Made by a program: the position numbers and the translations under genes | Notes under the pieces: model-generated | Told to the model about the DNA's origin: nothing | The model's database searches: none | The model's input: the letters and a program-made list of their open reading frames with translations, nothing else | Part shown: positions 8,100 to 33,067 of the stretch, piece by piece | How positions within the stretch are numbered: position 1 is the first letter of the stretch | Layout of the letters: each line of letters begins with the position of its first letter | IMG/VR virus record: IMGVR_UViG_3300042890_001471 | Span: 1 to 37,777 of that record | Reading direction: 5' to 3' (one strand) | Length of the DNA stretch: 37,777 nucleotides | DNA from: a virus

Positions 8100-9770
8100 A
8101 TGTCAGGAATATTATCAATGATTGCAGGGGGCACGTACAGTTCGGCCCCAGTTAACACGGTAGCACCAGTTGTATCTGGTACTGCAACAAGGGGTCAGAC
8201 TTTGTCCTCTACTACTGGTACCTGGACAGGTAAGCCAGATCCCACATTTGCATATCAATGGCAGCGGGCAGGGTCTAATATTGGCGGTGCAACATCCAGT
8301 ACATACGTATTAGTATCTGCAGACGTTGGAAATGCAATTCGATGTGTGGTAACTGCCACCAACGTTGTAGCGGCTGTCTCTGCTAACTCAAATGCCACAG
8401 CTGCAGTAGCAGGCCTTGTTGCAGGAGCACCAACTATTGGTACAGCAACTGCTGTAACTGCAACATCAGCTACTGTAGATTTTACTGCACCTGCAGACAA
8501 TGGTGGTTTAACTATTACAAGCTACACTGCTACCTCTTCACCTAGTGGTATTACTGGTACATTAAGTCAATCAGGGTCAGGAACTATTACAGTATCTGGT
8601 TTGGCAACTGATACTGCTTATACATTTACTGTAACAGCTACCAATTCTGCAGGCACCAGCGCTGCCAGCGCTTCAAGTAACAGTGTAACACCTATTGTAT
8701 CAGGTGCTCTCTGGTCATGGGGAAGAAACGTTCATGGTCAACTTGGTAATAATACTTCAACCTACTTTGGCTTTACAACTGGCACCTCTAGCCCCATACA
8801 AGTTGGCTCTGACACGAATTGGAAATCTGCAAAAGCAGGTAGATACAGCAGCTTTGCTGTCAGAACCACTGGAACTTTGTGGTCATGGGGTCAAAATGAA
8901 TATGGAAAGTTGGGCTTAAATATTCCATCTGCGGACAGAAGAAGTAGCCCAACACAAGTTGGTGGTGATACAAACTGGTTAAGAGTAACAGGGTTTTACA
9001 GCGGTCTTGCTCATAAAACCAATGGAACTTTGTGGTCATTAGGAGGATTCAATGGTAGTGGTCAATTAGGTGATGGAACTTATACAAGTAGATCTTCTCC
9101 GGTGCAAATTGGTTCTGATACTGATTGGGCAACTTCAGATGGCGGTTTTTATAATATGGGTGCTATTAAGACCGGTGGAACATTATATACCTGGGGTCAA
9201 GGTAGTTTTGGCGGACAGGGAAGAGGGGGCAGCAATGATACATCAAACACCCCATTACAAGTTGGGGCATTAACCAATTGGAAAAATGTAGCGGCTGGTA
9301 CATATTGGATGGCTGCTGTTAAAACTGACGGTACTTTGTGGGCATGGGGTAGAAATAATAAATACCAAGTAGCAGGTATTGGGAATGCATCTTTACATAG
9401 ATCAAGCCCGGTACAAATTGGTTCAGATACCAATTGGCTTAAAGTCGCTGCTGGCTATAATAGTCATTTGGCAATTAAAACTAATGGAACATTGTGGATT
9501 ACCGGTGAGTACGATGCTGCACCAAAACAAATTGGTGCTTTAACTAACTGGACGCATGCTGAGCCTACGAAAAATGGCGCTGCAAGATGGAACATTGGAC
9601 GCACTTCCAGTGGTAACTTATATGGGTGGGGAAGTAATACACACGGTCAACTTGGTCTTAATAATGCAACCTATATAGGTCAGTCTGACCCAACAGTTGT
9701 TGGAAGTGATACCAATTGGACAAACCTAACAACCCCTGGCGCACAACATACAGTGGCTATTCGTACTTAA
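8100..9770 (+). CDS. Ig-like / fibronectin III / RCC1 seven-bladed propeller adhesin
   Basis: A 556-residue three-part protein. Residues about 10-104 are a bacterial Ig-like domain (TGTWTGKP, YQWQRAGSNIGGATSSTYVL, RCVVTATN). Residues about 105-200 are a fibronectin type III domain (APTIGTATAVTATSATVDF, TAYTFTVTATNSAGTS). Residues 201-556 contain exactly seven RCC1 repeats, each with a 'LWSWG' strand and an 'SSPVQIGSDTNW' strand. The last blade ends in HTVAIRT and the first begins at GALWSWG, so one blade is completed by both termini, the closure typical of beta-propellers. Ig-like and FN3 domains are common carbohydrate- or surface-binding decorations of phage particles. Role: probable receptor-binding or surface-decorating virion protein. 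A terminator follows. Confidence 0.8.
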   Translation: MSGILSMIAGGTYSSAPVNTVAPVVSGTATRGQTLSSTTGTWTGKPDPTFAYQWQRAGSNIGGATSSTYVLVSADVGNAIRCVVTATNVVAAVSANSNATAAVAGLVAGAPTIGTATAVTATSATVDFTAPADNGGLTITSYTATSSPSGITGTLSQSGSGTITVSGLATDTAYTFTVTATNSAGTSAASASSNSVTPIVSGALWSWGRNVHGQLGNNTSTYFGFTTGTSSPIQVGSDTNWKSAKAGRYSSFAVRTTGTLWSWGQNEYGKLGLNIPSADRRSSPTQVGGDTNWLRVTGFYSGLAHKTNGTLWSLGGFNGSGQLGDGTYTSRSSPVQIGSDTDWATSDGGFYNMGAIKTGGTLYTWGQGSFGGQGRGGSNDTSNTPLQVGALTNWKNVAAGTYWMAAVKTDGTLWAWGRNNKYQVAGIGNASLHRSSPVQIGSDTNWLKVAAGYNSHLAIKTNGTLWITGEYDAAPKQIGALTNWTHAEPTKNGAARWNIGRTSSGNLYGWGSNTHGQLGLNNATYIGQSDPTVVGSDTNWTNLTTPGAQHTVAIRT

Positions 9771-20465: not shown

Positions 20466-20993
20466 ATGCCTACACAAGTACAATTTAGACGCGGAACAAC
20501 AGCTCAAAATAATAGCTTTACAGGAGCTGCCGGTGAGTTGTCGATCAATACCAGTAACAGTACTATCAGAGTACACGATGGTTCGACAGCAGGTGGTTCA
20601 GAATTAGCTACTGTTGCTTCAACCTCCAGCGCCACTAATTTAACTACCGGTACTTTAAATTCAGCCAGATTGCCTACCTCTGGGGTATCTGCAGCTACGT
20701 ATGGTAATGCAACACTTATACCGTCTTTCACTGTAGATACATTCGGTAGAATTACATCTTCCTCTAACGTTGCGATTTCAGCTACGGTTGCAAATACCAA
20801 TATTACAGGAACCATAACTGCTGCTCAACTTCAAAACACCGGGGTTGCTGCTGCCACCTACGGTAATGCAACAAATATTCCTTCTATTACAGTTGATGCA
20901 CAAGGACGAATCACCTCTGCCTCTAACGTCGCAGTTGTGGCTGGTTTGTCAGCAGGTAAGTCACTTGCATTTTCTATTGTTTTCGGCGGTTAA
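20466..20993 (+). CDS. Short tail fibre with Mtd-type N-terminus and GKSLAFSIVFGG tail
   Basis: A 175-residue protein with ACGGAG as ribosome binding site. Residues 1-45 (TQVQFRRGTTAQNNSFTGAA, VHDGSTAGGSELA) are the Mtd-type anchor also found at 15671. Two TYGNAT-IPS-TVD-GRITS collar repeats follow (about 75-105 and 130-160). It ends in GKSLAFSIVFGG, a hydrophobic Gly-ended tail shared with the next two gene products. Structural fibre protein; the C-terminal tail may be a trimer cap or a docking element (inference). Confidence 0.75.
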   Translation: MPTQVQFRRGTTAQNNSFTGAAGELSINTSNSTIRVHDGSTAGGSELATVASTSSATNLTTGTLNSARLPTSGVSAATYGNATLIPSFTVDTFGRITSSSNVAISATVANTNITGTITAAQLQNTGVAAATYGNATNIPSITVDAQGRITSASNVAVVAGLSAGKSLAFSIVFGG

Positions 20994-20998
20994 AGAAG

Positions 20999-21006
20999 TA
21001 TAAATA
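20999..21006 (+). promoter_or_regulatory. T4-type late promoter TATAAATA
   Basis: A perfect consensus 28 bp before the ATG at 21035, which is preceded by AAAAGGCGAAG. It begins 5 bp after the stop of the upstream fibre gene. Confidence 0.8.
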
Positions 21007-21034
21007 ATAACGAACGAGTCAACAAAAGGCGAAG

Positions 21035-21244
21035 ATGTCAATTAAAATAAACAACACCACAGTAATAGACGATACCCGTAATATTACCAACGTGGCAAAC
21101 ATTGCCGCATCTGGTACTATCACAGGTAATGTTACGGCATCTGGGGTAATTTCAGCTGCATCTTTTTCTGGCTCAGGAGCATCCTTAACGGGGGTTGCCA
21201 CGGTAGGTAAAGCTATTGCAATTTCACTGGTCTTAGGGGGCTAA
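21035..21244 (+). CDS. Mini tail-fibre protein, 69 aa, GKAIAISLVLGG tail
   Basis: The N-terminus IKINNTTVIDDTRNIT matches the start of the 143-aa protein at 7667. A short beta segment of GTITGNVTASGVISAASFSG type follows, and it ends in GKAIAISLVLGG. It is an N-terminal fibre module joined almost directly to a C-terminal cap, with hardly any shaft. It has its own late promoter and Shine-Dalgarno, so it is a real gene despite its size. Confidence 0.7.
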   Translation: MSIKINNTTVIDDTRNITNVANIAASGTITGNVTASGVISAASFSGSGASLTGVATVGKAIAISLVLGG

Positions 21245-21249
21245 ATTAA

Positions 21250-21558
21250 ATGACGGTACTGTCTAATATTATTACACCAACAAATATAGTTACTGCTACA
21301 AGCATTACTACATTAACAAATAAGACGATAGGTGTTACTCAGTTAAGTGGTAGTGTAGCGGTTGCAAACGGTGGTACAGGTTCTAGCTCCTTAACTACCA
21401 ACGGTGTTTTGTTAGGTAACAGCACATCTGCACTTAAAACAGTATCTCCGGGTACATCGGGTAATGTCTTAACCTCAGATGGTACATCATGGACATCGGC
21501 GGCTCCGAGTGTTACAATAGGTAAATCATTAGCAATTGCAATAGTTTTAGGTTCTTAA
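21250..21558 (+). CDS. Mini tail-fibre protein, 102 aa, GKSLAIAIVLGS tail
   Basis: It starts 5 bp after the previous stop. The product contains TSITTLTNKTIGVTQLSGSV, the connector VANGGTGSSSLTTNGVLLGN and SGNVLTSDGTSWTSAAPS, all common phage-fibre elements, and ends in GKSLAIAIVLGS. The VANGGTG part parallels VVDGGTGRGTF in the 464-aa fibre. Structural role by composition and neighbourhood. Confidence 0.65.
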   Translation: MTVLSNIITPTNIVTATSITTLTNKTIGVTQLSGSVAVANGGTGSSSLTTNGVLLGNSTSALKTVSPGTSGNVLTSDGTSWTSAAPSVTIGKSLAIAIVLGS

Positions 21559-21974: not shown

Positions 21975-24206
21975 ATGCCAAAACGATATGCTGGCGGCAT
22001 TATTACCGCCACCTTTAAGCCACTAGACCCCCATGGTGATCTAACCACCCTCTTTATCGTTGGTGCAGAGCTCGACGGTGCTATGGGATTAAACGAGGGT
22101 TTTACTGTTTATCGATCAAGCCCGGTCCAAATTGGTGCTAGTACAGATTGGTATAGAGGTTATGCCGGTCCACTATCAATCCGAGCAGGTGCTATTAAAC
22201 AAAATGGTACTATGTGGGTGTGGGGTAATAGTGAAAATGGGCAACTTGGCCTTAACAACGTTGTTCAAAAATCAAGCCCTACACAGGTTGGAGCTTTGAC
22301 TACTTGGTCTCATATGGTTGTAAGGAAAAATACCAGTCTAGCCATAAAAACCGATGGGTCACTATGGACTTGGGGCGCCAGTAACCATGGCCAACTCGGA
22401 TCTAATACTCTTACATACAGATCAAGCCCGGTTCAGGTTGGTAATACCCCTGCAGCAGCCACCTCATGGTCAGAAGTTGCTGAGGGTATGGGTTATCATA
22501 CAGCGATTATTGGAACTGATAGTAGTTTATGGACTTTTGGATACAATGACTACGGACAGTTAGGTCATACTAATACTGTAAGTCGCTCAAGCCCTGTACA
22601 AGTTGGTACAGATACCAATTGGTCTGCAGTATCTACTGGTGGAAGTTTTACTTTAGCTATTAAATCAGGAGCATTATGGGGTTGGGGGGATGGAACTATC
22701 CCTGATAATAGTTATTCGAGTAGGTCTAGCCCAATACAAATTGGTTCTTTAACTAACTGGTCTAAAATTGCTGCTGGTCCGGCTTTTGGTGCAGCCGTTA
22801 AGACGGATGGTTCGTTGTGGACCTGGGGTACTAATTACATGGGTACATTAGGACTAAACTTGGGGTACGCTGCAGATAAATCTAGTCCTACTCAAGTTGG
22901 GGGACTGTACACATGGGCATCAGTCGCGGCGGGCCGCAAGCAAACTTTCGCCGTTAAGACAGACGGAACCTTGTGGGCTTTTGGATACAACAACTACGGT
23001 CAATTAGGTAATAACTCAATTGCAAATACCTCTAGCCCAGTTCAGATTGGTTCAGATACTAATTGGTCTAAAGTCAATGCAGGTTATTTTACTACTTTTG
23101 CAATCAAGACAAATGGAACGATGTGGAGTTGGGGCCGAAATGACGACGGTCAGTTAGGTCAAAATAATCTAACAAATATATCTAGTCCAGTTCAAATTGG
23201 TTCTTTATCCACCTGGTCAAATATTGCCGGCAATTATTCGACTGTAGCTACCAAAAATGATGGTACGCTTTGGAGTTGGAGCAGCAATGATCAGGGTAAC
23301 TTAGGTCTCGGTGATACAGTGCCTAGATCTAGCCCAGTACAAATTGGTTCAGATACCGATTGGTCAAAACTTGGTAGTAATCTTAAAACAAACGCAGCTA
23401 TCAATACAGCTGGTGAGCTCTACATTTTTGGAGATAATGAATACGGGCAGTTAGGTATTAATTCTGTGGCTGATGCGTCTAGCCCTACCCAAGTTGGTGC
23501 TCAGATTTATGGATGGATTGATGCTGATGTTGGAGGGGATCATATAGGTGCTATTAGAGCCGATGGTACCTTATGGACATGGGGACGAGCTCAAGCCGGG
23601 CAGACTGGTCAAAATACTGGTGCACCTACTCCTATTCAAAGATCTAGCCCAGTACAAGTTGGTACAGATACCAATTGGTTAAAAATTAAAAATCAAAGAA
23701 ATGGTATGATGGCCATTAAAACTGATGGTACCCTCTGGGCTTGGGGATACCAGGATCAGGGTCAACTTGGTGACAATAGTACGATACCTAGATCATCACC
23801 TGTACAAATCGGGGCATTAACTGATTGGTCTCTTATTTCTTCTGGTGATTATATGCAGCATGCTATTAGAACCAATGGTACCCTATATGGTTGGGGAAGA
23901 AATAACTCCAACGCGACATCTATTGGCGATAATACCAGAGTAGACAGATCCAGTCCAGTTCAAATTGGTTCAGATACTTGGTCTACGGTTGCAACCGGGA
24001 TGCACATAGCTTCCGCAATTAAGACAAATGGTACTCTCTGGGCTTGGGGTGCAGCTGCCACATCAGGTGCTACAGGACAAAATGATAGAATAGATCGATC
24101 CAGCCCGGTCCAAATTGGTACTAATACTAACTGGATTTCAACGGCTGTTGGTGGTAGTACTGAGGGTACCCAATTTATATTAGCTACAGCTAACACACCA
24201 TTCTAA
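21975..24206 (+). CDS. RCC1-repeat protein with 14 repeats (double propeller)
   Basis: A 743-residue protein that is almost all RCC1 repeats of about 50 residues. I count 14 occurrences of the signature 'SSP(V/T/I)Q(I/V)G...W', alternating with 'KTDGTLWxWG' strands and GQLG turns. Fourteen repeats suggest two seven-bladed propellers in tandem. The first repeat is preceded by about 40 residues that lack the canonical LWSWG strand (LTTLFIVGAELDGAMGLNEG). There is no signal peptide. RCC1-fold proteins bind other proteins or ligands; in this tail-fibre setting a receptor-binding or particle-decorating role is inferred. DNA around the repeats is similar enough to permit recombination between blades and between the RCC1 genes. 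Confidence 0.8.
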   Translation: MPKRYAGGIITATFKPLDPHGDLTTLFIVGAELDGAMGLNEGFTVYRSSPVQIGASTDWYRGYAGPLSIRAGAIKQNGTMWVWGNSENGQLGLNNVVQKSSPTQVGALTTWSHMVVRKNTSLAIKTDGSLWTWGASNHGQLGSNTLTYRSSPVQVGNTPAAATSWSEVAEGMGYHTAIIGTDSSLWTFGYNDYGQLGHTNTVSRSSPVQVGTDTNWSAVSTGGSFTLAIKSGALWGWGDGTIPDNSYSSRSSPIQIGSLTNWSKIAAGPAFGAAVKTDGSLWTWGTNYMGTLGLNLGYAADKSSPTQVGGLYTWASVAAGRKQTFAVKTDGTLWAFGYNNYGQLGNNSIANTSSPVQIGSDTNWSKVNAGYFTTFAIKTNGTMWSWGRNDDGQLGQNNLTNISSPVQIGSLSTWSNIAGNYSTVATKNDGTLWSWSSNDQGNLGLGDTVPRSSPVQIGSDTDWSKLGSNLKTNAAINTAGELYIFGDNEYGQLGINSVADASSPTQVGAQIYGWIDADVGGDHIGAIRADGTLWTWGRAQAGQTGQNTGAPTPIQRSSPVQVGTDTNWLKIKNQRNGMMAIKTDGTLWAWGYQDQGQLGDNSTIPRSSPVQIGALTDWSLISSGDYMQHAIRTNGTLYGWGRNNSNATSIGDNTRVDRSSPVQIGSDTWSTVATGMHIASAIKTNGTLWAWGAAATSGATGQNDRIDRSSPVQIGTNTNWISTAVGGSTEGTQFILATANTPF

Positions 24207-24243: not shown

Positions 24244-25428
24244 ATGCCATTAGGTAAGCAATATGCGGGAATGTGGACCCTATCCCAACAACTACAGGCG
24301 GTAAGCGGTAGAACCTGGACTGGGATCCCTGCAGTACCAAGTATGTGGGCTTGGGGAAGAGGTCAAGATGGGCAACTTGGTATTAACGCAGTAGGATTTA
24401 GATCCAGCCCTGTACAAGTAGATTCTGGCATTTCTTGGCCTAGGATTGCTGCAGTTGAGTTTGCTGGCGGCATTAAAGGTGATGGTACCCTTTGGATGTG
24501 GGGTGATGGTGTTTCCGGTCATATGGGGAATAATAGTATAGCACCCAGGTCAAGCCCGACCCAGGTTGGAACCGATACAGATTGGGCAGCTATTAACGTT
24601 GGTGCCTCTTTTATAGGTGCTGTTAAAACCAACGGAACAGCGTGGGTATGGGGTCAAAATAACGCTGGATACTTAGGTCTTAATAATACTATTGGAGCCG
24701 GTCGATCTAGCCCGACACAGCTCGGAGCACTAACTAATTGGGTTAAAATACAGTTTTTCTCAAATAGCGCGGTCGCTTTAAAAACCGATGGTACTCTTTG
24801 GTCATGGGGTCACAATCCTAATGGTCAATTGGGGACTAATAATACTGTTTATAGATCCAGCCCTGTTCAAATAGGTTCAGATACTGACTGGTCAAATATT
24901 GCTGGTTCCTTTTCATCCCCTATAGCTCAAAAAACTAATGGTGCGATTTATTCATGGGGTTCCAATGGCGGGGGTAATTTAGGTCTTAATACATCTGATG
25001 GAGCTCATAAGTCAAGCCCGACTCAGATTGGATCCGCTACAGATTGGATTTTAGCTGAAAACGCTCTAAGTTCAGGTAAATCTAATTTACTTCGTAAAAC
25101 TAATGGTACACTTTGGGGGTTTGGATATAACAACTATGGTATGCTTGGTGCTATCAGTGTTGTTCAAATTTCAAGTCCTGTACAAATTGGAGCATTAACA
25201 ACATGGTCAAGCGTGGCTGTAACTAGTAATACCGGTCTTGCAGTTAAAACGGATGGTACTTTGTGGGCATCAGGAAACGGTGCAGACTATGGCCAATTGG
25301 GTAATAATCTGAGTGGAGCAACCAACTATCGATCAAGTCCGGTTCAAATTGGAACAGGTACTCAATGGACCGATGTTTATGCCGGTTTTCAAACCGTATA
25401 CGCTATTCAAGAAATACCTGGTACATAA
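24244..25428 (+). CDS. RCC1-repeat seven-bladed propeller protein, 394 aa
   Basis: Preceded by a TCGGAGTC ribosome binding region. After about 35 residues (LGKQYAGMWTLSQQLQAVSG) there are seven RCC1 repeats marked by seven SSPxQ...W signatures (SWPRI, TDWAAI, TNWVKI, TDWSNI, TDWILA, TTWSSV, TQWTDV) and ending in QTVYAIQE. One closed propeller is expected. The N-terminal lead resembles that of the 424-aa RCC1 protein at 27702 (GIWTISEAAAKKQQN), so both may attach by the same short segment. Last gene before the enzyme island. Confidence 0.8.
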   Translation: MPLGKQYAGMWTLSQQLQAVSGRTWTGIPAVPSMWAWGRGQDGQLGINAVGFRSSPVQVDSGISWPRIAAVEFAGGIKGDGTLWMWGDGVSGHMGNNSIAPRSSPTQVGTDTDWAAINVGASFIGAVKTNGTAWVWGQNNAGYLGLNNTIGAGRSSPTQLGALTNWVKIQFFSNSAVALKTDGTLWSWGHNPNGQLGTNNTVYRSSPVQIGSDTDWSNIAGSFSSPIAQKTNGAIYSWGSNGGGNLGLNTSDGAHKSSPTQIGSATDWILAENALSSGKSNLLRKTNGTLWGFGYNNYGMLGAISVVQISSPVQIGALTTWSSVAVTSNTGLAVKTDGTLWASGNGADYGQLGNNLSGATNYRSSPVQIGTGTQWTDVYAGFQTVYAIQEIPGT

Positions 25429-25484: not shown

Positions 25485-27254
25485 ATGAAAAATATTTACT
25501 TCCTTGCCGGGCTTCCCCGTTCTGGTTCCACCCTTCTTGCAGCCATCCTTAATCAACACCCCTCCGTCCATGCCACAGCCACATCAGGTTTACTAGATGT
25601 GCTGGTTGGTACTTTGAAGGCGTGGAAAGAAAGTGCTACGGTTCAATCGGTCTTTGATGAAAAAGAAAATCAAGATGAGTTACAGCGTATCTTAAGAAAT
25701 ATTTGTCAAACAAAATACGAAAAAATTAATAAGCCTATTATTATTGATAAAGCCAGGGGTTGGTCTTCTGATATTAATATACCAACCATGACAAATGTGT
25801 TGGGGTACAGACCAAAGATAATTGCTACGGTTCGTAACATTCCAGATTGTGCGGCGTCATTTGTAAGAATTGCTAAACCAAAAGACAAGTATGAATTTTT
25901 AAGATCTGATCAATTTATTGCTCACATTAAAGAATCCTATCAAACGCTTCAAACAGGCTTTGTATATGCTCCAGATTCTATTTTATTTGTTGACTATGAC
26001 GACCTTATGCAGGATCCTGGTAAGCAACTAGACCGTATTCATGAATTTCTAGACTTACCCGATCATCAGTATGATTTTAATAATCTGGATGGTACTAATT
26101 TAAGAGAAAAAGATGAAGAGATTTGGGATGTTAAAGGTCTTCACGACGTTAAACCTAAATTAGGGTACCAGCACAAAGAAGACCCTAAAGACGTTTTAGG
26201 TTATATGTACAATAACTTTGTTCAGCCTAGATTTTGGCTGAATGAGAGAGTAGCACCTGGACCTATCCATAAACTAGATCTTCAGTTGGCAGCCGGATTG
26301 GTGGGTAATTTTGAAGAAGGTTTAAGATTAGCTAATGAACTTGAAGTAGAAGAACCGTGGAACAATCGTGCAGCCTTTAATCGGGGATGGTATAGGTTAC
26401 GCGAAGATAAGTTACTTGAAGGTGAACAGTTATTATACCGTGGTCGTATTGAATCAGTATTTGGTAATCCTAAACCCAGTACTCCTACCCCAGAATGGGA
26501 TGGGGTATCAAAAGGTACCGTGATGCTGTGTCTTGAAGGGGGATTAGGAGATCAAATCCACGGTGCAAGATATGCCGAATACATAATGGAAAAAGGATGT
26601 GATGTAATTATTGCATGCTCGGGCCCAATAGCTACTTTACTTAGAAAAATTAAAGGTGTGAAGGCCGTAATACAGCATGAAGCAGTTTTCGGGGTAGTAC
26701 ATGATTACTGGACTCCATCTATGTCAACTGTAGTACCTTTAAAACTAGAATACAAAGATATTAAAGGTGCAGCTTATATAAATAAACCAGATGTGGAACC
26801 TCATTATGGAATGAGAATTGGTATCAGGTGGCAAGGTAGTACTGTTTTTGAACATGAGCAGCATAGACTTTTTCCACCAGAGCTAATGTTCAATGCATTG
26901 AAGGGAACTAATGCAGAGTTTATTTCTTTACAAAGAGATGATGGCGCAGAATTTTGTCCTAGTTGGGTCAAAACAGTTCCACTAAATACATGGGAAGATA
27001 CAAGAAATGCAATTGCTTCTTGTGATTTAGTGATTAGTTCGTGTACATCGGTTGCGCATTTATCTGCTGCAATGGGGGTACAGACTTGGATTGCCGTGCC
27101 TATTTTGCCTTACTATTTGTGGGCTAAAGAGGGTGATACAAGTCCTTGGTATGATAGTGTGACTTTGTTTAGGCAGGAAGCATTTGGAGATTGGACTGGT
27201 CCTTTCGAAAAGATTAATTTAAAACTTGCAGAGATGCAAAGAAAACAAGCATAG
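25485..27254 (+). CDS. Sulfotransferase fused to a GT9-like glycosyltransferase domain
   Basis: A 589-residue fusion. Residues 1-253 are a PAPS-dependent sulfotransferase: FLAGLPRSGSTLLAAIL gives the 5'-phosphosulfate loop (PRSGST, 11-16), and IIATVRNIPDCAASF (113-126) corresponds to the 3'-phosphate-binding Arg...Ser region. Residues about 265-340 are a helical TPR-like linker ending in PTPEWDG. Residues 345-589 match the C-terminal domain of TPR-linked GT9/heptosyltransferase-like proteins (EGGLGDQIHGARYAEY, RIGIRWQGSTVFEHEQHR, LVISSCTSVAHLSAAMG, SPWYDSVTLFRQ, GDWTGP). It would be a cytoplasmic enzyme that transfers a sugar and sulfates the acceptor or a nearby glycan. The substrate is unknown. 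There is no clear Shine-Dalgarno; a sigma70-type promoter precedes it. A second, shorter paralogue of the first domain lies at 32309. Confidence 0.85.
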   Translation: MKNIYFLAGLPRSGSTLLAAILNQHPSVHATATSGLLDVLVGTLKAWKESATVQSVFDEKENQDELQRILRNICQTKYEKINKPIIIDKARGWSSDINIPTMTNVLGYRPKIIATVRNIPDCAASFVRIAKPKDKYEFLRSDQFIAHIKESYQTLQTGFVYAPDSILFVDYDDLMQDPGKQLDRIHEFLDLPDHQYDFNNLDGTNLREKDEEIWDVKGLHDVKPKLGYQHKEDPKDVLGYMYNNFVQPRFWLNERVAPGPIHKLDLQLAAGLVGNFEEGLRLANELEVEEPWNNRAAFNRGWYRLREDKLLEGEQLLYRGRIESVFGNPKPSTPTPEWDGVSKGTVMLCLEGGLGDQIHGARYAEYIMEKGCDVIIACSGPIATLLRKIKGVKAVIQHEAVFGVVHDYWTPSMSTVVPLKLEYKDIKGAAYINKPDVEPHYGMRIGIRWQGSTVFEHEQHRLFPPELMFNALKGTNAEFISLQRDDGAEFCPSWVKTVPLNTWEDTRNAIASCDLVISSCTSVAHLSAAMGVQTWIAVPILPYYLWAKEGDTSPWYDSVTLFRQEAFGDWTGPFEKINLKLAEMQRKQA

Positions 27255-27262
27255 GAGATAAA

Positions 27263-27694
27263 ATGAGTACTATTAAAACAGGTTATTGGGTTCGAGCACA
27301 AAACGGTGTTGTTACAGATTGCTGGGATTATAAGCCCAGTGATGATAAGATGGCATCAGAGCCAGGTTGGAGAGAAGCGGTAGAGGTTATTCCTGATACA
27401 GTTCCTAACAGAGAATATGTCAGCACCCATACATTTGATCTGAGCAAGACACCTGCAGAAATCGTCTGGGCTAAAGGAACGTATTCGGTTGAAGATCGCC
27501 GCGGAAGTTTGAAGAGTCAAGCTAAAGGTGTTTTTAATCAAGCCGTTCAAGAACAAGCTAGATTAGAAACGAACGATAATCCAGATCAAGCATTAGATTT
27601 AGAAGCGATTACTACAGCAAGAGCAACCCTTACAGCCAGATTAGCAGCTCTTGATGCAGCTGTTACTCATGAAGATATCGACGCGTTAATGTAA
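27263..27694 (+). CDS. Unknown protein, 143 aa, possible tail-fibre assembly type
   Basis: Preceded by TAGGAGATAAA, 8 bp after the fusion enzyme. The N-terminus (GYWVRAQNGVVTDCWDYKP) and the middle (EIVWAKGTYSVEDRRGSLKSQAKGVF) give way to a helical, Gln/Ala-rich C-terminus (ALDLEAITTARATLTARLAALDAA). The layout of a small beta N-terminal domain plus a C-terminal helix resembles phage tail-fibre assembly or virion-associated small proteins, but I cannot assign a family. Its place between the sulfotransferase fusion and an RCC1 gene suggests a link to fibres rather than to the sugar enzymes. Confidence 0.6.
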   Translation: MSTIKTGYWVRAQNGVVTDCWDYKPSDDKMASEPGWREAVEVIPDTVPNREYVSTHTFDLSKTPAEIVWAKGTYSVEDRRGSLKSQAKGVFNQAVQEQARLETNDNPDQALDLEAITTARATLTARLAALDAAVTHEDIDALM

Positions 27695-27701
27695 GAAGAA
27701 T

Positions 27702-28976
27702 ATGTCCGATTTTCCAGGTAAACTAATAACTAAAACCCCTATTACCACCGTAGGTCCTACGGATGGTGAAGGGGGCTCGGCGTCTGGGATATGGACTATA
27801 TCTGAGGCGGCTGCTAAAAAACAACAGAACCTTTGGCCAGCAAGAACCTTAAGTAGATTTCTTTATGCTTGGGGTGTGGCTGATGTGAGGGGGATAAGCG
27901 ATGAAGGTACACCTCGTTCAAGTCCAGTTCAAGTTGGTACAGAAGGAACATGGCAAAAGATTGCAATGGGGTGGAAAAGTGTAGCAGCTATAAAAAGTGA
28001 CGGTACTTTGTGGAGATGGGGTCTAAATACCTCTGGTGAATTAGGTATTGATTCAAGAGTTGATAAATCCAGTCCAGTTCAAGTAGGTGCACTGACTAAC
28101 TGGGCTAACATAGCTTCTTCTGGTTGCTCTGTAGGAAAAGATGCTTTTGCTGCTGTAAAGACGGATGGAACACTCTGGGCAATGGGTGCAGGTTCTATGG
28201 TGCCTGATAATACCGGGGTAAGTAGGTCTAGCCCAGTACAGATTGGTTCGGGTACTAACTGGTCAAATGCATTTGGAAGTCATGGTTATGGAAATCCCAT
28301 GGGGATGTGGGCAATCAAGACAGATGGTACACTATGGGGATGGGGTCGTCAAAATAACGGTAGTATAGGTAATGGTTATGTCAATGTCGGTTATAACGCA
28401 GCGCCTTTATCTAGTCCAGTTCAAATTGGGTCAGATACAAACTGGTTAAAGGTTTGTGGGGGCTATTACAAGGGTATTGCTTTAAAAACCAATGGCCAGA
28501 TCTGGGGTTGGGGTACTGGTGGTAACGGGCAAAATGAAACACAGTCAGGCATTAACGGTAATACCCCTGCACAGTTAGGGGCGCTATCTACATGGGTGGA
28601 TTTAGGTGTGGGTTCAACTCATGCTCATGCTATTAATACTGCAGGTGAATTGTATGGTTGGGGTAGAAATGCTGATAGATATGGTTCAGGAGCCGGTCAA
28701 TTAGGTGATAACACTACTACTAATCGAACTGCACCTGTAAAAATCGGTACTGATACAAACTGGTCAAGAGTATTTACAGGTGGTTATCATACTAGTTCAT
28801 TATTTAAAAGAACTGATAATACATTATGGTTTTCCGGTGTTGGCATTGGCGCTAGTAGTTCGCCGCAAGTAAAAGTTTCAAGCCCGGTTCAAGTAAATAG
28901 TACATCTGATTGGGATGTAGCTGGATGTAGTGGGCATGGAGATAATCCAGGTGTAGTAGCTACTCGAAAAGTTTAA
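27702..28976 (+). CDS. RCC1-repeat seven-bladed propeller protein, 424 aa
   Basis: It starts 7 bp after the preceding stop. The first 50 residues (KLITKTPITTVGPTDGEGGS, then GIWTISEAAAKKQQ) are followed by seven RCC1 repeats: TWQKI, TNWANI, TNWSNA, TNWLKV, STWVDL, TNWSRV and SDWDVA. Repeats 5 and 6 have degenerate SSP signatures (NTPAQ, RTAPV). It is inside the enzyme island, surrounded by glycosyltransferase and sulfotransferase genes, and it is the only structural-type protein there besides the small unknown gene. That makes it the nearest candidate substrate of those enzymes (inference). Confidence 0.8.
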   Translation: MSDFPGKLITKTPITTVGPTDGEGGSASGIWTISEAAAKKQQNLWPARTLSRFLYAWGVADVRGISDEGTPRSSPVQVGTEGTWQKIAMGWKSVAAIKSDGTLWRWGLNTSGELGIDSRVDKSSPVQVGALTNWANIASSGCSVGKDAFAAVKTDGTLWAMGAGSMVPDNTGVSRSSPVQIGSGTNWSNAFGSHGYGNPMGMWAIKTDGTLWGWGRQNNGSIGNGYVNVGYNAAPLSSPVQIGSDTNWLKVCGGYYKGIALKTNGQIWGWGTGGNGQNETQSGINGNTPAQLGALSTWVDLGVGSTHAHAINTAGELYGWGRNADRYGSGAGQLGDNTTTNRTAPVKIGTDTNWSRVFTGGYHTSSLFKRTDNTLWFSGVGIGASSSPQVKVSSPVQVNSTSDWDVAGCSGHGDNPGVVATRKV

Positions 28977-29714: not shown

Positions 29715-30548
29715 ATGCTGCATATCGTCTTACGAACTTGTGATAGACACTCACTGGTATCTACTAGAATTGTTAATAAAAAAGAATGTATATTAAGATG
29801 TTTAAATTCTATTTTAACAAATTTAGAATCTATTGATGATAAATCTCTACATATTATAGATGATAACTCATCTGACGATTTTAAGAGTAAACTTAACTCT
29901 ATCGTTGAACATCAACCGTTCGTAACTGTTAATTATCTGCCTGAACGAGATCAGACAGGGCTATCAGCTAAAAAGAAATCTAGATACTCTGTACAAGTTG
30001 CGTATGAATATATCTATAATTTACCAGATGATGATTTAGTTTATGTAGTAGAAGATGATTACCTACATTTTCCTAATGCTATACGGGAGATGGTAGATAC
30101 ATGGAACTACTTTACAAAATTTATACAAACTAACATTGGTATTTTTCCCCAAGACTTTAATCAGCTACACCTACACCCATCCTTTCCTCATAATGAAACA
30201 TATTTTCAGTCAAGTTTTGTAGTACCCTCTTATCAAAGATATTATAAAACAACGTGGTTTACACAAGAATCTTTTATGATTCAGTCTAAACTATTTAAGC
30301 AATATAAAACTGAGTTTGATAGTTTATTAAAAATTGGAGAGGATCCATCTTGCTGGGAAGGTAATACAATATCATCTGTCTGGAATAAACCTGATGTAAA
30401 GATGTTTATGCCTCTTGGCTCTCTGGTTGTACATATGTCAGATAAAGCAGATATACCTTTCTTTATTAGTAAGGAACAAGTAATTAATTTATGGAACGAA
30501 AATCAAACCTCTTGGTCGTCGGAACAGGATTCTCAGGTTCAGTTATAG
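29715..30548 (+). CDS. GT2-like (GT-A fold) glycosyltransferase
   Basis: A 277-residue protein. LHIVLRTCDRHSL opens the fold. HIIDDNSSDDF (46-56) is the nucleotide-binding DDxS-type motif, and VYVVEDDYLHFP (109-120) gives the metal-binding DxD-type site. WFTQESFMI and GEDPSCWEGNTISSVW later in the chain may bind the acceptor. It transfers a nucleotide-activated sugar, possibly the UDP-galactofuranose made by the enzyme encoded next. Its last 58 bp overlap the start of the mutase gene in another frame, which points to tight co-expression. The substrate is not known. Confidence 0.75.
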   Translation: MLHIVLRTCDRHSLVSTRIVNKKECILRCLNSILTNLESIDDKSLHIIDDNSSDDFKSKLNSIVEHQPFVTVNYLPERDQTGLSAKKKSRYSVQVAYEYIYNLPDDDLVYVVEDDYLHFPNAIREMVDTWNYFTKFIQTNIGIFPQDFNQLHLHPSFPHNETYFQSSFVVPSYQRYYKTTWFTQESFMIQSKLFKQYKTEFDSLLKIGEDPSCWEGNTISSVWNKPDVKMFMPLGSLVVHMSDKADIPFFISKEQVINLWNENQTSWSSEQDSQVQL

Positions 30549-31483
30549 CTCGTGAATTAGCTGACAACGGATTCAATGTCACTATTATTGATAAGAGATC
30601 GCATATAGGCGGTAATTGTTTTGATGAAATGGTAAATGGAGTGAGAGTTCATAAGTATGGACCCCATCTCTTCCACACCAACAATACCAAAGTAGTTGAT
30701 TGGTTATCTAGATTTACAGAGTGGGTTGAGTATAAGCACAAGGTTAAAGCTTATTATAACGGTAAATTTTTAACTCTGCCTCCCAATCAACATACCCAGA
30801 CCGTTCTTGGCGATAAGTTATTCGATGTCGTATATGCACCTTACACATTAAAAATGTGGGGTACTTTAGATATAGATAGCAAAGTCTTAGATAGATTAAA
30901 GATACGTAATGATGATAATGAGTTTTATTTTCCAAATGACTCATTTCAATACTTACCTAAAGATGGGTATACCAAAGTTTTCGAGAATATACTTAATCAT
31001 TCAAATATTAAAGTCTTATTAAATACTGACTATAATAAAGATTTAGAATCTCAATACGATAGAGTTTTTAATTCAATGGCTATAGATGAGTATTATGACT
31101 ATTGTTACGGTGAATTACCTTATCGGTCTATTAAGTTTCATCATAGGTCAAGTAACGACTTTACAATGCCTACCCCGGTAGTTAACTTTACCGATAACAA
31201 CATCTATACAAGAATAACCAAATGGGAGTTGTTTCCTAATCACGGTTCAGGTGAGCATTATACACTAGAAGAACCGTGTGATTACAAAGAAAACAATTAC
31301 GAAAGATACTACCCTGTTAAAGATGTTGATAGTATCAATAGAGTAGTGTATAATAAGTATAAGTCACTAGACAATAATAAAGTTACGTTTATTGGACGGT
31401 GTGGTTTGTATACATATCTTGATATGGACATGGCTATTGCAAGTTCTTTATCAATTGCAAATCAATTTTTTAACTCTAACTGA
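30491..31483 (+). CDS. glf: UDP-galactopyranose mutase
   Basis: A 330-residue flavoenzyme that converts UDP-galactopyranose to UDP-galactofuranose. The FAD-binding GTGFSGSVIARELAD (11-25) is followed by the acidic strand end and RSHIGGN (36-42). HKYGPHLFHT (54-63), the characteristic flavin-contact segment, is intact. Later motifs also match the family: PNDSFQYLPKDGYTKVFENI, YRSIKFHHR, VVNFTDNNIYTRITKWE, YYPVKDVDS and FIGRCGLYTYLDMDMAI. It is slightly shorter than the usual 365-390 residues. The AAGGAA box is about 14 bp from the start and lies inside the upstream GT2 gene. Galactofuranose is a cell-surface sugar in bacteria, so this gene ties the island to glycan synthesis. Confidence 0.95.
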   Translation: MERKSNLLVVGTGFSGSVIARELADNGFNVTIIDKRSHIGGNCFDEMVNGVRVHKYGPHLFHTNNTKVVDWLSRFTEWVEYKHKVKAYYNGKFLTLPPNQHTQTVLGDKLFDVVYAPYTLKMWGTLDIDSKVLDRLKIRNDDNEFYFPNDSFQYLPKDGYTKVFENILNHSNIKVLLNTDYNKDLESQYDRVFNSMAIDEYYDYCYGELPYRSIKFHHRSSNDFTMPTPVVNFTDNNIYTRITKWELFPNHGSGEHYTLEEPCDYKENNYERYYPVKDVDSINRVVYNKYKSLDNNKVTFIGRCGLYTYLDMDMAIASSLSIANQFFNSN

Positions 31484-31492
31484 GGGTATATT

Positions 31493-32281
31493 ATGAAGCG
31501 AATTTTAATCATGGGTCTTCCTGGTGCTGGTAAGACATATCTTGCTCAACACATTCTTGAACATCTCCAAAACGATCGTAAAACAGTCATGTGGCTTAAC
31601 GCCGATGATGTTCGTAAGAAGTACAATGACTGGGACTTTAGTAAAGAAGGTCGTATCAGGCAGAGTCTTCGAATGAGAGAGCTTGCCGACAGCTACGATA
31701 CTGATTTCGTTATTTGTGACTTTGTAGCTCCCCTCCCAGAGATGCGTCATAACTTTAAAGCCGATTGGACGGTCTGGGTCGATACTATTGAGAAGGGTCG
31801 ATTTGAAGATACTAATAAAGCCTTCACACCTCCTGAGTTTTATGACTTTAGAATCACCGAACAACAAGGGGAAAAGTGGGGTGAGTTTATTGCCGCCCAC
31901 ATTCTAGATGAAAGACGTAGACCAACGTTTAACTGGCAGAAAGAAACCGTTCAGATGCTTGGAAGATGGCAGCCATGGCATGAAGGTCATAGAGCGTTGT
32001 TTGAGCGTGCATTAGCTAAGACCGGTCAAGTGGTTATTCAGATTAGAGACTGTCAGGGATGGCAGGGTTCTAACCCCTTTGCTATTGAACAGGTTAAGAA
32101 CTATATTCGTAGAGATTTAGATCCTATGTTCCAAGGTCAATACGAAATTCAGGTAGTACCTAACATTGTTAATATTACCTACGGTAGAGATGTAGGGTAT
32201 AAGATCGAACAGGAAGTGTTCGATGATGCTATTCATTCTGTATCTGCTACTAAGATTAGAAAGAAAATGGGTCTTGAGTAA
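31493..32281 (+). CDS. APS-kinase-like kinase fused to an HxGH nucleotidyltransferase
   Basis: A 262-residue bifunctional protein with GAGGGT as ribosome binding site. Residues 1-145 are a P-loop kinase resembling adenylylsulfate kinase: GLPGAGKT (8-15), WLNADDVRKKY (34-44, place of LDGDNVR), DFSKEGRIRQSLRMRELAD, VICDFVAPLPEMR (73-85) and VWVDTIEKGRFEDT. Residues 150-262 are an adenylyl/cytidylyltransferase-fold domain: GRWQPWHEGH (157-166), NITYGRDVGY (227-236) and SVSATKIRKKM (249-259). If the kinase makes PAPS from APS, it would feed the two sulfotransferases flanking it. The transferase half is much shorter than ATP sulfurylase and looks closer to NadM/NMNAT or cytidylyltransferases, so making APS is only a possibility. 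Both halves have intact motifs. Confidence 0.8.
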   Translation: MKRILIMGLPGAGKTYLAQHILEHLQNDRKTVMWLNADDVRKKYNDWDFSKEGRIRQSLRMRELADSYDTDFVICDFVAPLPEMRHNFKADWTVWVDTIEKGRFEDTNKAFTPPEFYDFRITEQQGEKWGEFIAAHILDERRRPTFNWQKETVQMLGRWQPWHEGHRALFERALAKTGQVVIQIRDCQGWQGSNPFAIEQVKNYIRRDLDPMFQGQYEIQVVPNIVNITYGRDVGYKIEQEVFDDAIHSVSATKIRKKMGLE

Positions 32282-32308: not shown

Positions 32309-33067
32309 ATGAAAAAAACTTTGCATTTTTTAAGTGGAATTCCTCGATCAGGTTCAACCGTTCTAGCAGCTATTCTAAACCAGAACCCTACAATGCATGT
32401 TTCAACGACTTCCGGGCTCGTCTTTGCACTTGATGGATTAGCAACTACATGGCATTCAACGGGTCTTCTCGACAAGAATGATCCCTCGCGAAATAAACTA
32501 GCTCAAACTATGAGAGGTGCAATTGATGCATTCTATGAACATACAGATAGACCTATTATTATAGATAAGTCTAGAGGGTGGCCGATTGTAGCAATTATTG
32601 AAGCCATGGTTCAGGTATTAAATCGTCAGCCAAAGATTATCGCTACCGTTCGTTCGATACCAGATTGCGCTGCATCTTTTGTACGTTTAGCCAAGCCTAA
32701 GGATTTAGACGATTTTATGAGTACTAGTCCATATATTGAACATCTCGAAGCAGCCTATAATGCACTACAAGACGGATACAAATTTGCTCCAGAAAACTTT
32801 TTGTTCGTTGAATATGAAAATTTATTAGCTGAACCTAAAATTCAATTAGATAGAGTTCATAAATTCTTAAATCTCCCAGAATTTAAATATGATTTTAATA
32901 ATATTGATGGTTCAAGTGTAGCCGAAGATGATGAGACCCTCCATGGTAGCTCCGGTATGCATGATGTAAAACCTGTTTTAGCTCCTCAGCATAAGCAAGA
33001 TCCTAAAGAACTTTTAAAGCAGTATTATTCAGAATTTCTTCAACCAGAATTTTGGCTTAAATCTTAA
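32309..33067 (+). CDS. Stand-alone sulfotransferase
   Basis: A 252-residue PAPS-dependent sulfotransferase, paralogous to the first domain of the fusion at 25485 along its whole length: FLSGIPRSGSTVLAAILNQ (PRSGST, 12-17), RPIIIDKSRGW, IIATVRSIPDCAASFVRLAK, QLDRVHKFLNLPEFKYDFNN, and the end QPEFWLKS, which matches the point where the fusion's sulfotransferase domain stops. It lacks the glycosyltransferase part. A weak TTGAGT-N18-TATAAA lies immediately upstream but would leave no leader. It is the last gene before the terminator and the gp13 promoter, and the neighbour of the APS-kinase-like fusion. Confidence 0.85.
   Translation: MKKTLHFLSGIPRSGSTVLAAILNQNPTMHVSTTSGLVFALDGLATTWHSTGLLDKNDPSRNKLAQTMRGAIDAFYEHTDRPIIIDKSRGWPIVAIIEAMVQVLNRQPKIIATVRSIPDCAASFVRLAKPKDLDDFMSTSPYIEHLEAAYNALQDGYKFAPENFLFVEYENLLAEPKIQLDRVHKFLNLPEFKYDFNNIDGSSVAEDDETLHGSSGMHDVKPVLAPQHKQDPKELLKQYYSEFLQPEFWLKS

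Follow-up and report, generated by a model that had tools for sequence, protein, structure and literature searches.

The fusion gene and its neighbours

The window, by which we mean the whole stretch of DNA analysed, is a virus record of 37,777 bases. Positions 25485-27254 on its plus strand form one uninterrupted frame of 589 amino acids, in which a sulfotransferase (ST) precedes a glycosyltransferase (GT). RCC1 genes lie on both sides of this ST-GT fusion and an APS kinase gene is the sixth downstream. The features are listed below.

21975..24206, + strand: RCC1-repeat protein, 743 aa, with 11 stretches matching Pfam RCC1
24244..25428, + strand: RCC1-repeat protein (Pfam), 394 aa, immediately before the fusion
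25485..27254, + strand: ST-GT fusion of 589 aa, made up of a sulfotransferase, two helical hairpins and a GT9-like glycosyltransferase (Pfam, alignment, AlphaFold2)
25485..26240, + strand: sulfotransferase half, residues 1-252 (Pfam PF13469, residues invariant in 44 relatives, TPST-like fold)
26271..26441, + strand: pair of TPR-like helical hairpins, residues 263-319, belonging to the glycosyltransferase unit (secondary structure of the model, unfused glycosyltransferases)
26514..27251, + strand: residues 344-589, a small GT-B glycosyltransferase predicted to be complete (invariant residues, predicted fold)
27263..27694, + strand: small conserved protein, 143 aa, encoded by the next gene downstream of the fusion in 33 of 55 clusters
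27702..28976, + strand: RCC1-repeat protein (Pfam), 424 aa
28993..29706, + strand: family-25-like glycosyltransferase, 237 aa (Pfam PF01755, E 4.2e-17)
29715..30548, + strand: family-2-like glycosyltransferase, 277 aa (Pfam PF00535, E 6.5e-7)
30491..31483, + strand: UDP-galactopyranose mutase-like protein, 330 aa, putative UDP-galactofuranose supply (Pfam GLF, E 2e-43)
31493..32281, + strand: APS kinase (residues 1-141) with a nucleotidyltransferase-like domain, 262 aa, candidate for PAPS supply (Pfam, fold)
32309..33067, + strand: stand-alone sulfotransferase, 252 aa, probably the broken-off half of another fusion (identity comparison)

The mutase-like protein scored 259.7 bits with TIGR00031, under the cut-off of 303.75. 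Its gene was found in 7 of the 26 clusters with long flanks and would fit the presence of galactofuranose in some phages. We do not claim the 143-aa protein as a tail-fibre chaperone, a role that only its position would suggest, since its 31 members gave no usable Pfam or PHROG match. Elsewhere in the window, a further RCC1 gene with a fibronectin type III domain lies at 8100-9770, and three short adjoining proteins at 20466-21558 share a near-identical, glycine-framed hydrophobic C-terminal peptide. Similar endings were seen in two other loci (L003 and L005), just upstream of RCC1 genes.

Predicted architecture and origin of the fused enzyme

The initial annotation described the chain as a sulfotransferase joined to a TPR-linked, GT9-like glycosyltransferase. 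The Pfam matches, the predicted fold and the uninterrupted frame confirmed this layout, and all three GT9-like strings quoted then, RIGIRWQGS among them, were found in the translation. The AlphaFold2 model, built with a 44-sequence alignment as input, has a mean pLDDT of 89.9 and a pTM of 0.74, so the relative placement of the domains is only loosely fixed.

Residues 6-193 matched Pfam Sulfotransfer_3 with E 1.9e-19 and a score of 71.2 bits (curated cut-off 27); all 44 relatives matched the family as well. The loop P11-R12-S13-G14-S15-T16, together with R117 and S125, is invariant in the 44 sequences. We take the loop to be the 5′-phosphosulfate loop and the latter two residues to be the Arg/Ser pair binding the 3′-phosphate. 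T33-S34 and D88-K89 are likewise invariant. In the predicted fold, residues 1-259 form a complete sulfotransferase, which in the PDB comparison superposes best on the human and tick tyrosylprotein sulfotransferases (Z 17.3-17.8 over 236-241 residues; top match Z 17.8, rmsd 3.7, 238 residues aligned). These are followed by the sulfotransferase domain of CurM (16.7) and, lower, by heparan sulfate sulfotransferases (Z about 13.5-14).

TPST1/2 are therefore the nearest solved fold, and their PAPS-binding loop and 3′-phosphate residues are kept in the phage half, but the identity is only 13-16 %. Moreover, TPSTs are Golgi enzymes, while the phage protein has no membrane anchor and is fused to a glycosyltransferase. 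Their catalytic glutamate after the PAPS loop is presumably human E99; in the register of the phmmer alignment its position is occupied by T33, a threonine in all 44 sequences. Because of this replacement the fold does not imply sulfation of protein tyrosine, and we do not claim TPST identity.

For the C-terminal domain a half of a GT-B fold had been expected; the superpositions on WaaC, 1psw and TibC suggest otherwise. Of residues 344-589, the stretch 344-585 covers the whole length of E. coli WaaC (chain residues 1-320) with Z 16.3, rmsd 3.3 and 230 aligned residues, so the domain is predicted to be a complete small GT-B enzyme. Other folds recovered were ADP-heptose transferase II (15.7), TibC (15.4) and 1psw. 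The domain is about 80 residues shorter than WaaC and has the sulfotransferase placed in front. E351, G353, G355, D356 and Q357 as well as R563-Q564 and W570 are invariant in the 44 relatives. The G-x-G-D motif formed by G353, G355 and D356 is present also in all 9 sequences of alignment A4; its Asp, in the N-terminal half of the domain, presumably corresponds to WaaC D13. The likeness to the GT9 enzymes WaaC/WaaF and TibC thus lies in the whole GT-B fold (Z 15.2-16.3) and in G-x-G-D with the invariant D356, whereas the identity is 10-14 % and the phage domain stays below the Pfam GT9 thresholds. No convincing Pfam or NCBIfam family match was obtained for the C-terminal part; Glyco_transf_9 did not match the fusion and matched 5 of the 44 relatives weakly (best E 0.024).

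Between the two halves the model places four helices at residues 263-319, forming two hairpins. Pfam TPR families gave no match in the fusion, and TPR_16 was recovered weakly in 12 of the 44 relatives (best E 0.0061). TPR-like helices preceding a GT-B domain are also found in OGT and SPINDLY (GT41), and Foldseek lists 8dti at rank 11 and 5djs at rank 33. The phage enzyme differs in having two hairpins only and a GT-B domain that is GT9-like rather than GT41; the Foldseek superpositions are loose overall (rmsd 14-19).

The linker had been proposed to be the end of a TPR array, and the fusion to have arisen when a sulfotransferase replaced TPRs. Neither idea held, as three unfused phage glycosyltransferases of 335-356 aa (L318, L327 and L328) start with the same two-hairpin unit. 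The linker is the N-terminus of a stand-alone phage glycosyltransferase, and the replacement of TPRs was rejected as the origin. Because the unfused enzymes begin with this unit, the fusion looks like an end-to-end joining of two whole enzymes.

The alignment with the stand-alone sulfotransferase at 32309, reported originally for residues 1-253, was recovered for residues 1-252, with 48 % identity over 251 residues. The same protein shares 78 % identity with the corresponding halves of fusion proteins from other phages. Given this difference, we consider it likelier to have broken off another fusion than to be the parent of the one in its own genome, and rejected the latter as the likelier order.

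Distribution of the fusion and its gene context

When viral contigs were searched with an alignment of four sequences, 464 candidate IMG/VR stretches matched the pattern, and 431 of them encode relatives. Among the best 80 of these 431, all matches span both halves, and the shortest stops at query residue 533, at the end of its contig. The same fusion is thus present in other genomes, as the initial annotation had proposed to check, and it is no assembly accident. Nothing that had been named as counting against that annotation was found, as a GT-B fold is predicted and the join occurs in other phages.

From a second search with the sulfotransferase half, the best 80 of 489 matches were kept. 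The collected loci contain at least 132 ORFs over 570 aa with both halves, falling into 79, 55 and 28 clusters at identity thresholds of 99, 95 and 80 %, respectively. Some loci overlap on one contig, which the clustering removed, and loci from the viral-contig scan with alignment A4, mostly the same close relatives, were left out of the counts. The fusion is old and common among phages. In 30 disjoint close pairs of relatives (88-97.5 % identical), the median dN/dS of the sulfotransferase half was 0.045 (maximum 0.12) in the 28 pairs that could be used, and that of the glycosyltransferase half was 0.085 (maximum 0.19) in all 30; purifying selection thus acts strongly on both.

In the genome collection, 8 of 33 loci extend into the glycosyltransferase half. 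Seven of them (L151-L157) are mostly short MAG contigs; one of these, L154, has a phage-like gene set, as judged by eye from the translated ORFs. The eighth, L158, has the halves as separate genes. In Methylocucumis oryzae (L157:3401-5160) the fusion is split across three ORFs behind an RCC1 gene and has apparently decayed. Among 50,697 named phage records, relatives of the sulfotransferase or glycosyltransferase are rare (12 records), as are RCC1 relatives (11 records). Both occur together in AG-345-E08, BUCT-ZZ01 and two S-SRM01 records.

Besides ST-GT, the glycosyltransferase was found alone (L318, L323-L328), fused to a C-terminal methyltransferase-like domain (e.g. in cyanophage BUCT-ZZ01) and, in reversed order, as a GT-ST protein of 667 aa (L316 and L317) with Pfam Sulfotransfer_1 at residues 413-625 (E 5.7e-12). 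The methyltransferase-like domain was named from reading the sequence, as Pfam gives it no match. On a quick tree of 86 glycosyltransferase domains, with several long branches of uncertain position, 4 changes account for the four architectures, one above the minimum of 3. ST-GT accordingly looks like having essentially one origin on this tree, and the reversed GT-ST groups with GT-methyltransferase.

Separate genes for the two enzymes were seen as well. In the marine virus AG-345-E08 (L148), one cluster encodes RCC1, a 436-aa TPR-glycosyltransferase, RCC1, a 277-aa sulfotransferase and a family-25 glycosyltransferase, and S-SRM01 (L147) has RCC1 genes with a separate TPR-glycosyltransferase and sulfotransferase. 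On the bacterial MAG contig L158, genes for presumed sulfate adenylyltransferase subunits, named from their translations rather than by a family search, stand ahead of genes for an APS kinase and an unfused sulfotransferase; a TPR-glycosyltransferase gene and a methyltransferase-like gene come after these within 8 kb. Longer chains also occur. The contig L153 (4664-9083), binned as Woesearchaeota, encodes a 795-aa sulfotransferase-glycosyltransferase-methyltransferase chain. A Patescibacteria MAG contig (L155:1649-5698) encodes, directly behind an RCC1 gene, a chain of 1349 aa in which TPRs and a GT41 domain (Pfam E 2.5e-62) accompany sulfotransferase, GT9-like glycosyltransferase and methyltransferase domains.

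The most constant neighbour of the fusion is an RCC1 gene; the initial annotation had passed over the RCC1 genes and the APS kinase. Taking one locus per 95 % cluster, an RCC1 gene is directly upstream in 53 of the 55 clusters; the upstream gene is on the same strand in 54, and the median gap is 12 nt. Downstream, the neighbour is a protein of the 143-aa type in 33 clusters, an RCC1 gene in 9 and another gene in 13. The other architectures, i.e. GT alone, GT-methyltransferase and the reversed GT-ST, likewise sit behind RCC1 genes. Over all architectures an RCC1 gene is directly upstream in 71 of 86 representatives (ST-GT 39/42, GT-methyltransferase 27/30, GT alone 4/13, GT-ST 1/1). Random placing within the same loci predicts 13.8, with a maximum of 27 in 20,000 simulations, the rows being taken as independent.

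The second neighbour of interest is the APS kinase gene at 31493. Its product exceeds the Pfam APS_kinase cut-off (40.3 against 21.1 bits), a match present in 18 of 18 relatives, but it scores far below the curated NCBIfam equivalog TIGR00455 (29.2 against 138.7 bits). In the fold comparison, which covers residues 1-141 only, the first 30 rows are APS kinases or enzymes containing one (Z 15.7-18.8) and gluconate kinase comes next at Z 14.8. Residues 1-141 thus match the APS kinase domains of PAPS synthetase and CysC with Z up to 18.8, while the phage kinase is shorter and under the apsK cut-off. The partner in PAPS synthetase is ATP sulfurylase; the partner domain in the phage resembles NMN adenylyltransferase (best E 3.8e-10). 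We considered this domain as a miniature ATP sulfurylase, which the HxGH-type and ISAT..R motifs and the joining to APS kinase in both orders would suit. Against it, the profile search ranks NMN adenylyltransferases first and contains no ATP sulfurylase up to E 5. The model of this part is poor, with block-mean pLDDT of 34-53 near residues 221-250. The reverse order is that of a nucleotidyltransferase-APS kinase protein encoded beside the distant fusion L153; the kinase of this protein, at 218.2 bits, exceeds the curated apsK threshold of 138.7.

We counted APS kinase genes within 5 kb in 58 clusters with flanks of 5 kb or more on either side; before clustering, 104 of the 215 loci had flanks of this length. 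Of the 29 clusters with a sulfotransferase, 16 have the kinase and 13 lack it at this distance; of the 29 without one, none has it. Fisher tests, whose rows are not phylogenetically independent, gave p of 1.7e-6 at 95 % clustering, 4.0e-4 at 80 % and 0.0067 at 70 % (5/12 against 0/17). On the glycosyltransferase tree, sulfotransferase and kinase change in step in roughly one independent pair and in opposite directions in none, so a sign test is uninformative. The contrast is mostly one clade against another, and we rejected independent co-evolution of sulfotransferase and kinase because the Fisher tests do not correct for this shared ancestry. The most clear-cut individual example is given by two loci, L319 and L257, which are collinear over 10.4 kb among the blastn matches listed. 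L319 carries the ST-GT gene, the shared small gene and the APS kinase gene, and by the same matches L257 has neither ST-GT nor kinase there.

The kinase-nucleotidyltransferase protein also occurs in phages of Stenotrophomonas, Xanthomonas and Clavibacter (5 of the 50,697 records; e.g. L149 and L150). In the two regions inspected, L149 and L150, no sulfotransferase is annotated near its gene, so the protein may have another role in phages of this type.

Possible function and alternative readings

We lean, by a narrow preference, towards the fusion being a two-step modification enzyme of a tail cassette, with the RCC1 protein or proteins encoded directly upstream as its likeliest acceptor. The GT-B half would transfer a sugar onto the acceptor, and the sulfotransferase half would then sulfate what results, most likely on the sugar just attached, with PAPS that the APS kinase encoded in the cassette would help to supply. 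Within the chain, the acceptor would be handed from one active site to the other. The idea that one polypeptide couples sugar transfer to sulfation dates from the initial annotation and is kept as the likely sense of the fusion, with both activities putative. Sulfated glycans on the tail could alter receptor binding, charge or recognition.

Three lines of evidence point to the RCC1 propeller proteins, which are probably tail-borne and part of the virion, as the acceptor. These are the gene order and spacing, a cassette showing no membrane or lipid-linked glycan machinery, and nearest folds that include protein modifiers (TPST, TibC, SPY and OGT). We take TPST1/2 to sulfate proteins, TibC to be a protein heptosyltransferase, and SPY and OGT to be TPR protein glycosyltransferases. 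A wider reading, to which we give somewhat less than even weight, is that of a widespread modular system by which phages would sulfate glycans on their own tail proteins. RCC1 proteins would be glycosylated and then capped by one chain, with sulfate by ST-GT or the reversed GT-ST and with methyl by GT-methyltransferase, and the compact kinase-nucleotidyltransferase protein would make PAPS on the spot.

The main rival, which we regard as unlikely, is that the cassette alters the host surface polysaccharide with sugar and sulfate after infection, e.g. for blocking superinfection or freeing progeny from debris, and that RCC1 fibres bind the same polysaccharide. The family-25 and family-2 glycosyltransferases, the UDP-galactopyranose mutase and the heptosyltransferase-like folds in the cassette are characteristic of pathways for surface glycans. 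A place next to receptor-binding genes would also fit enzymes acting on the host surface, and modifiers and binders of a receptor may travel together. However, no strong hydrophobic, membrane-spanning segment was detected among the cassette proteins on a 19-residue scale (maximum 1.44), and their Pfam matches include no flippase, polymerase or lipid-carrier transferase. The RCC1 linkage, moreover, holds across the glycosyltransferase architectures, and the distant L155 chain includes, beside its sulfotransferase, GT9-like and methyltransferase domains, a GT41 domain, presumably of the family of protein O-GlcNAc transferases.

It is improbable that one half only is active and the other a docking or substrate-binding relic. 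Dead domains can persist in fusions and the TPST catalytic Glu is absent, but both halves keep invariant binding-loop residues and have low dN/dS (0.045 and 0.085). Modification of phage DNA bases or nucleotides seems very improbable. Phage systems of this kind with glycosyltransferases and sulfotransferases have been reported computationally (Iyer et al. 2013, as cited in PMC10829341), yet the fusion genes lie among RCC1 and apparently structural genes, not replication genes, and the best fold matches are enzymes that act on proteins or lipopolysaccharide. That the fusion is an auxiliary metabolic gene of a general kind, aiding host sulfur metabolism, is hardly credible, although PMC13079714 discusses viral sulfotransferases as part of the sulfur cycle and PMC8290583 discusses them as auxiliary metabolic genes, since the APS kinase would use up APS to make the sulfate donor. 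We know of no core step of sulfur assimilation that consists of a sulfotransferase-glycosyltransferase fusion behind a propeller gene.

Glycans on capsid and tail-tube proteins have been reported from mycobacteriophages (Freeman et al. 2023, as described in PMC12619734); in the portion of that description consulted, sulfation, RCC1 proteins and an ST-GT fusion do not appear. Our searches of the open-access literature yielded no description of a phage ST-GT fusion, of the reversed GT-ST or of the RCC1-APS kinase setting. The parts of the fusion belong to or lie near known families, and sulfation is possibly a new chemistry for phage glycosylation. If the preferred reading is true, it describes a sulfation system for virion proteins by which phages tune the charge and binding of their host-recognition surface, and it gives a job to many viral sulfotransferases filed under sulfur cycling. 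The conserved fusion and RCC1 neighbourhood lead to the testable claim that tail proteins carry sulfated glycans, and an enzyme coupling glycosylation to sulfation would in that case be a useful biocatalyst.

A different idea about RCC1 proteins concerns phage phAPEC6, which encodes eleven RCC1-like proteins; its authors discuss whether these help to arrange the DNA within the capsid (PMC7247149), unlike the role of tail-protein acceptor proposed here. Finally, in the RCC1 cluster of AG-345-E08 (L148:7468-18333) several proteins read from their translations as 2OG-Fe(II) oxygenase-like lie between the glycosyltransferases, and one 2OG-Fe(II) oxygenase is annotated in S-SRM01. Hydroxylation ahead of glycosylation is possible in these two clusters.
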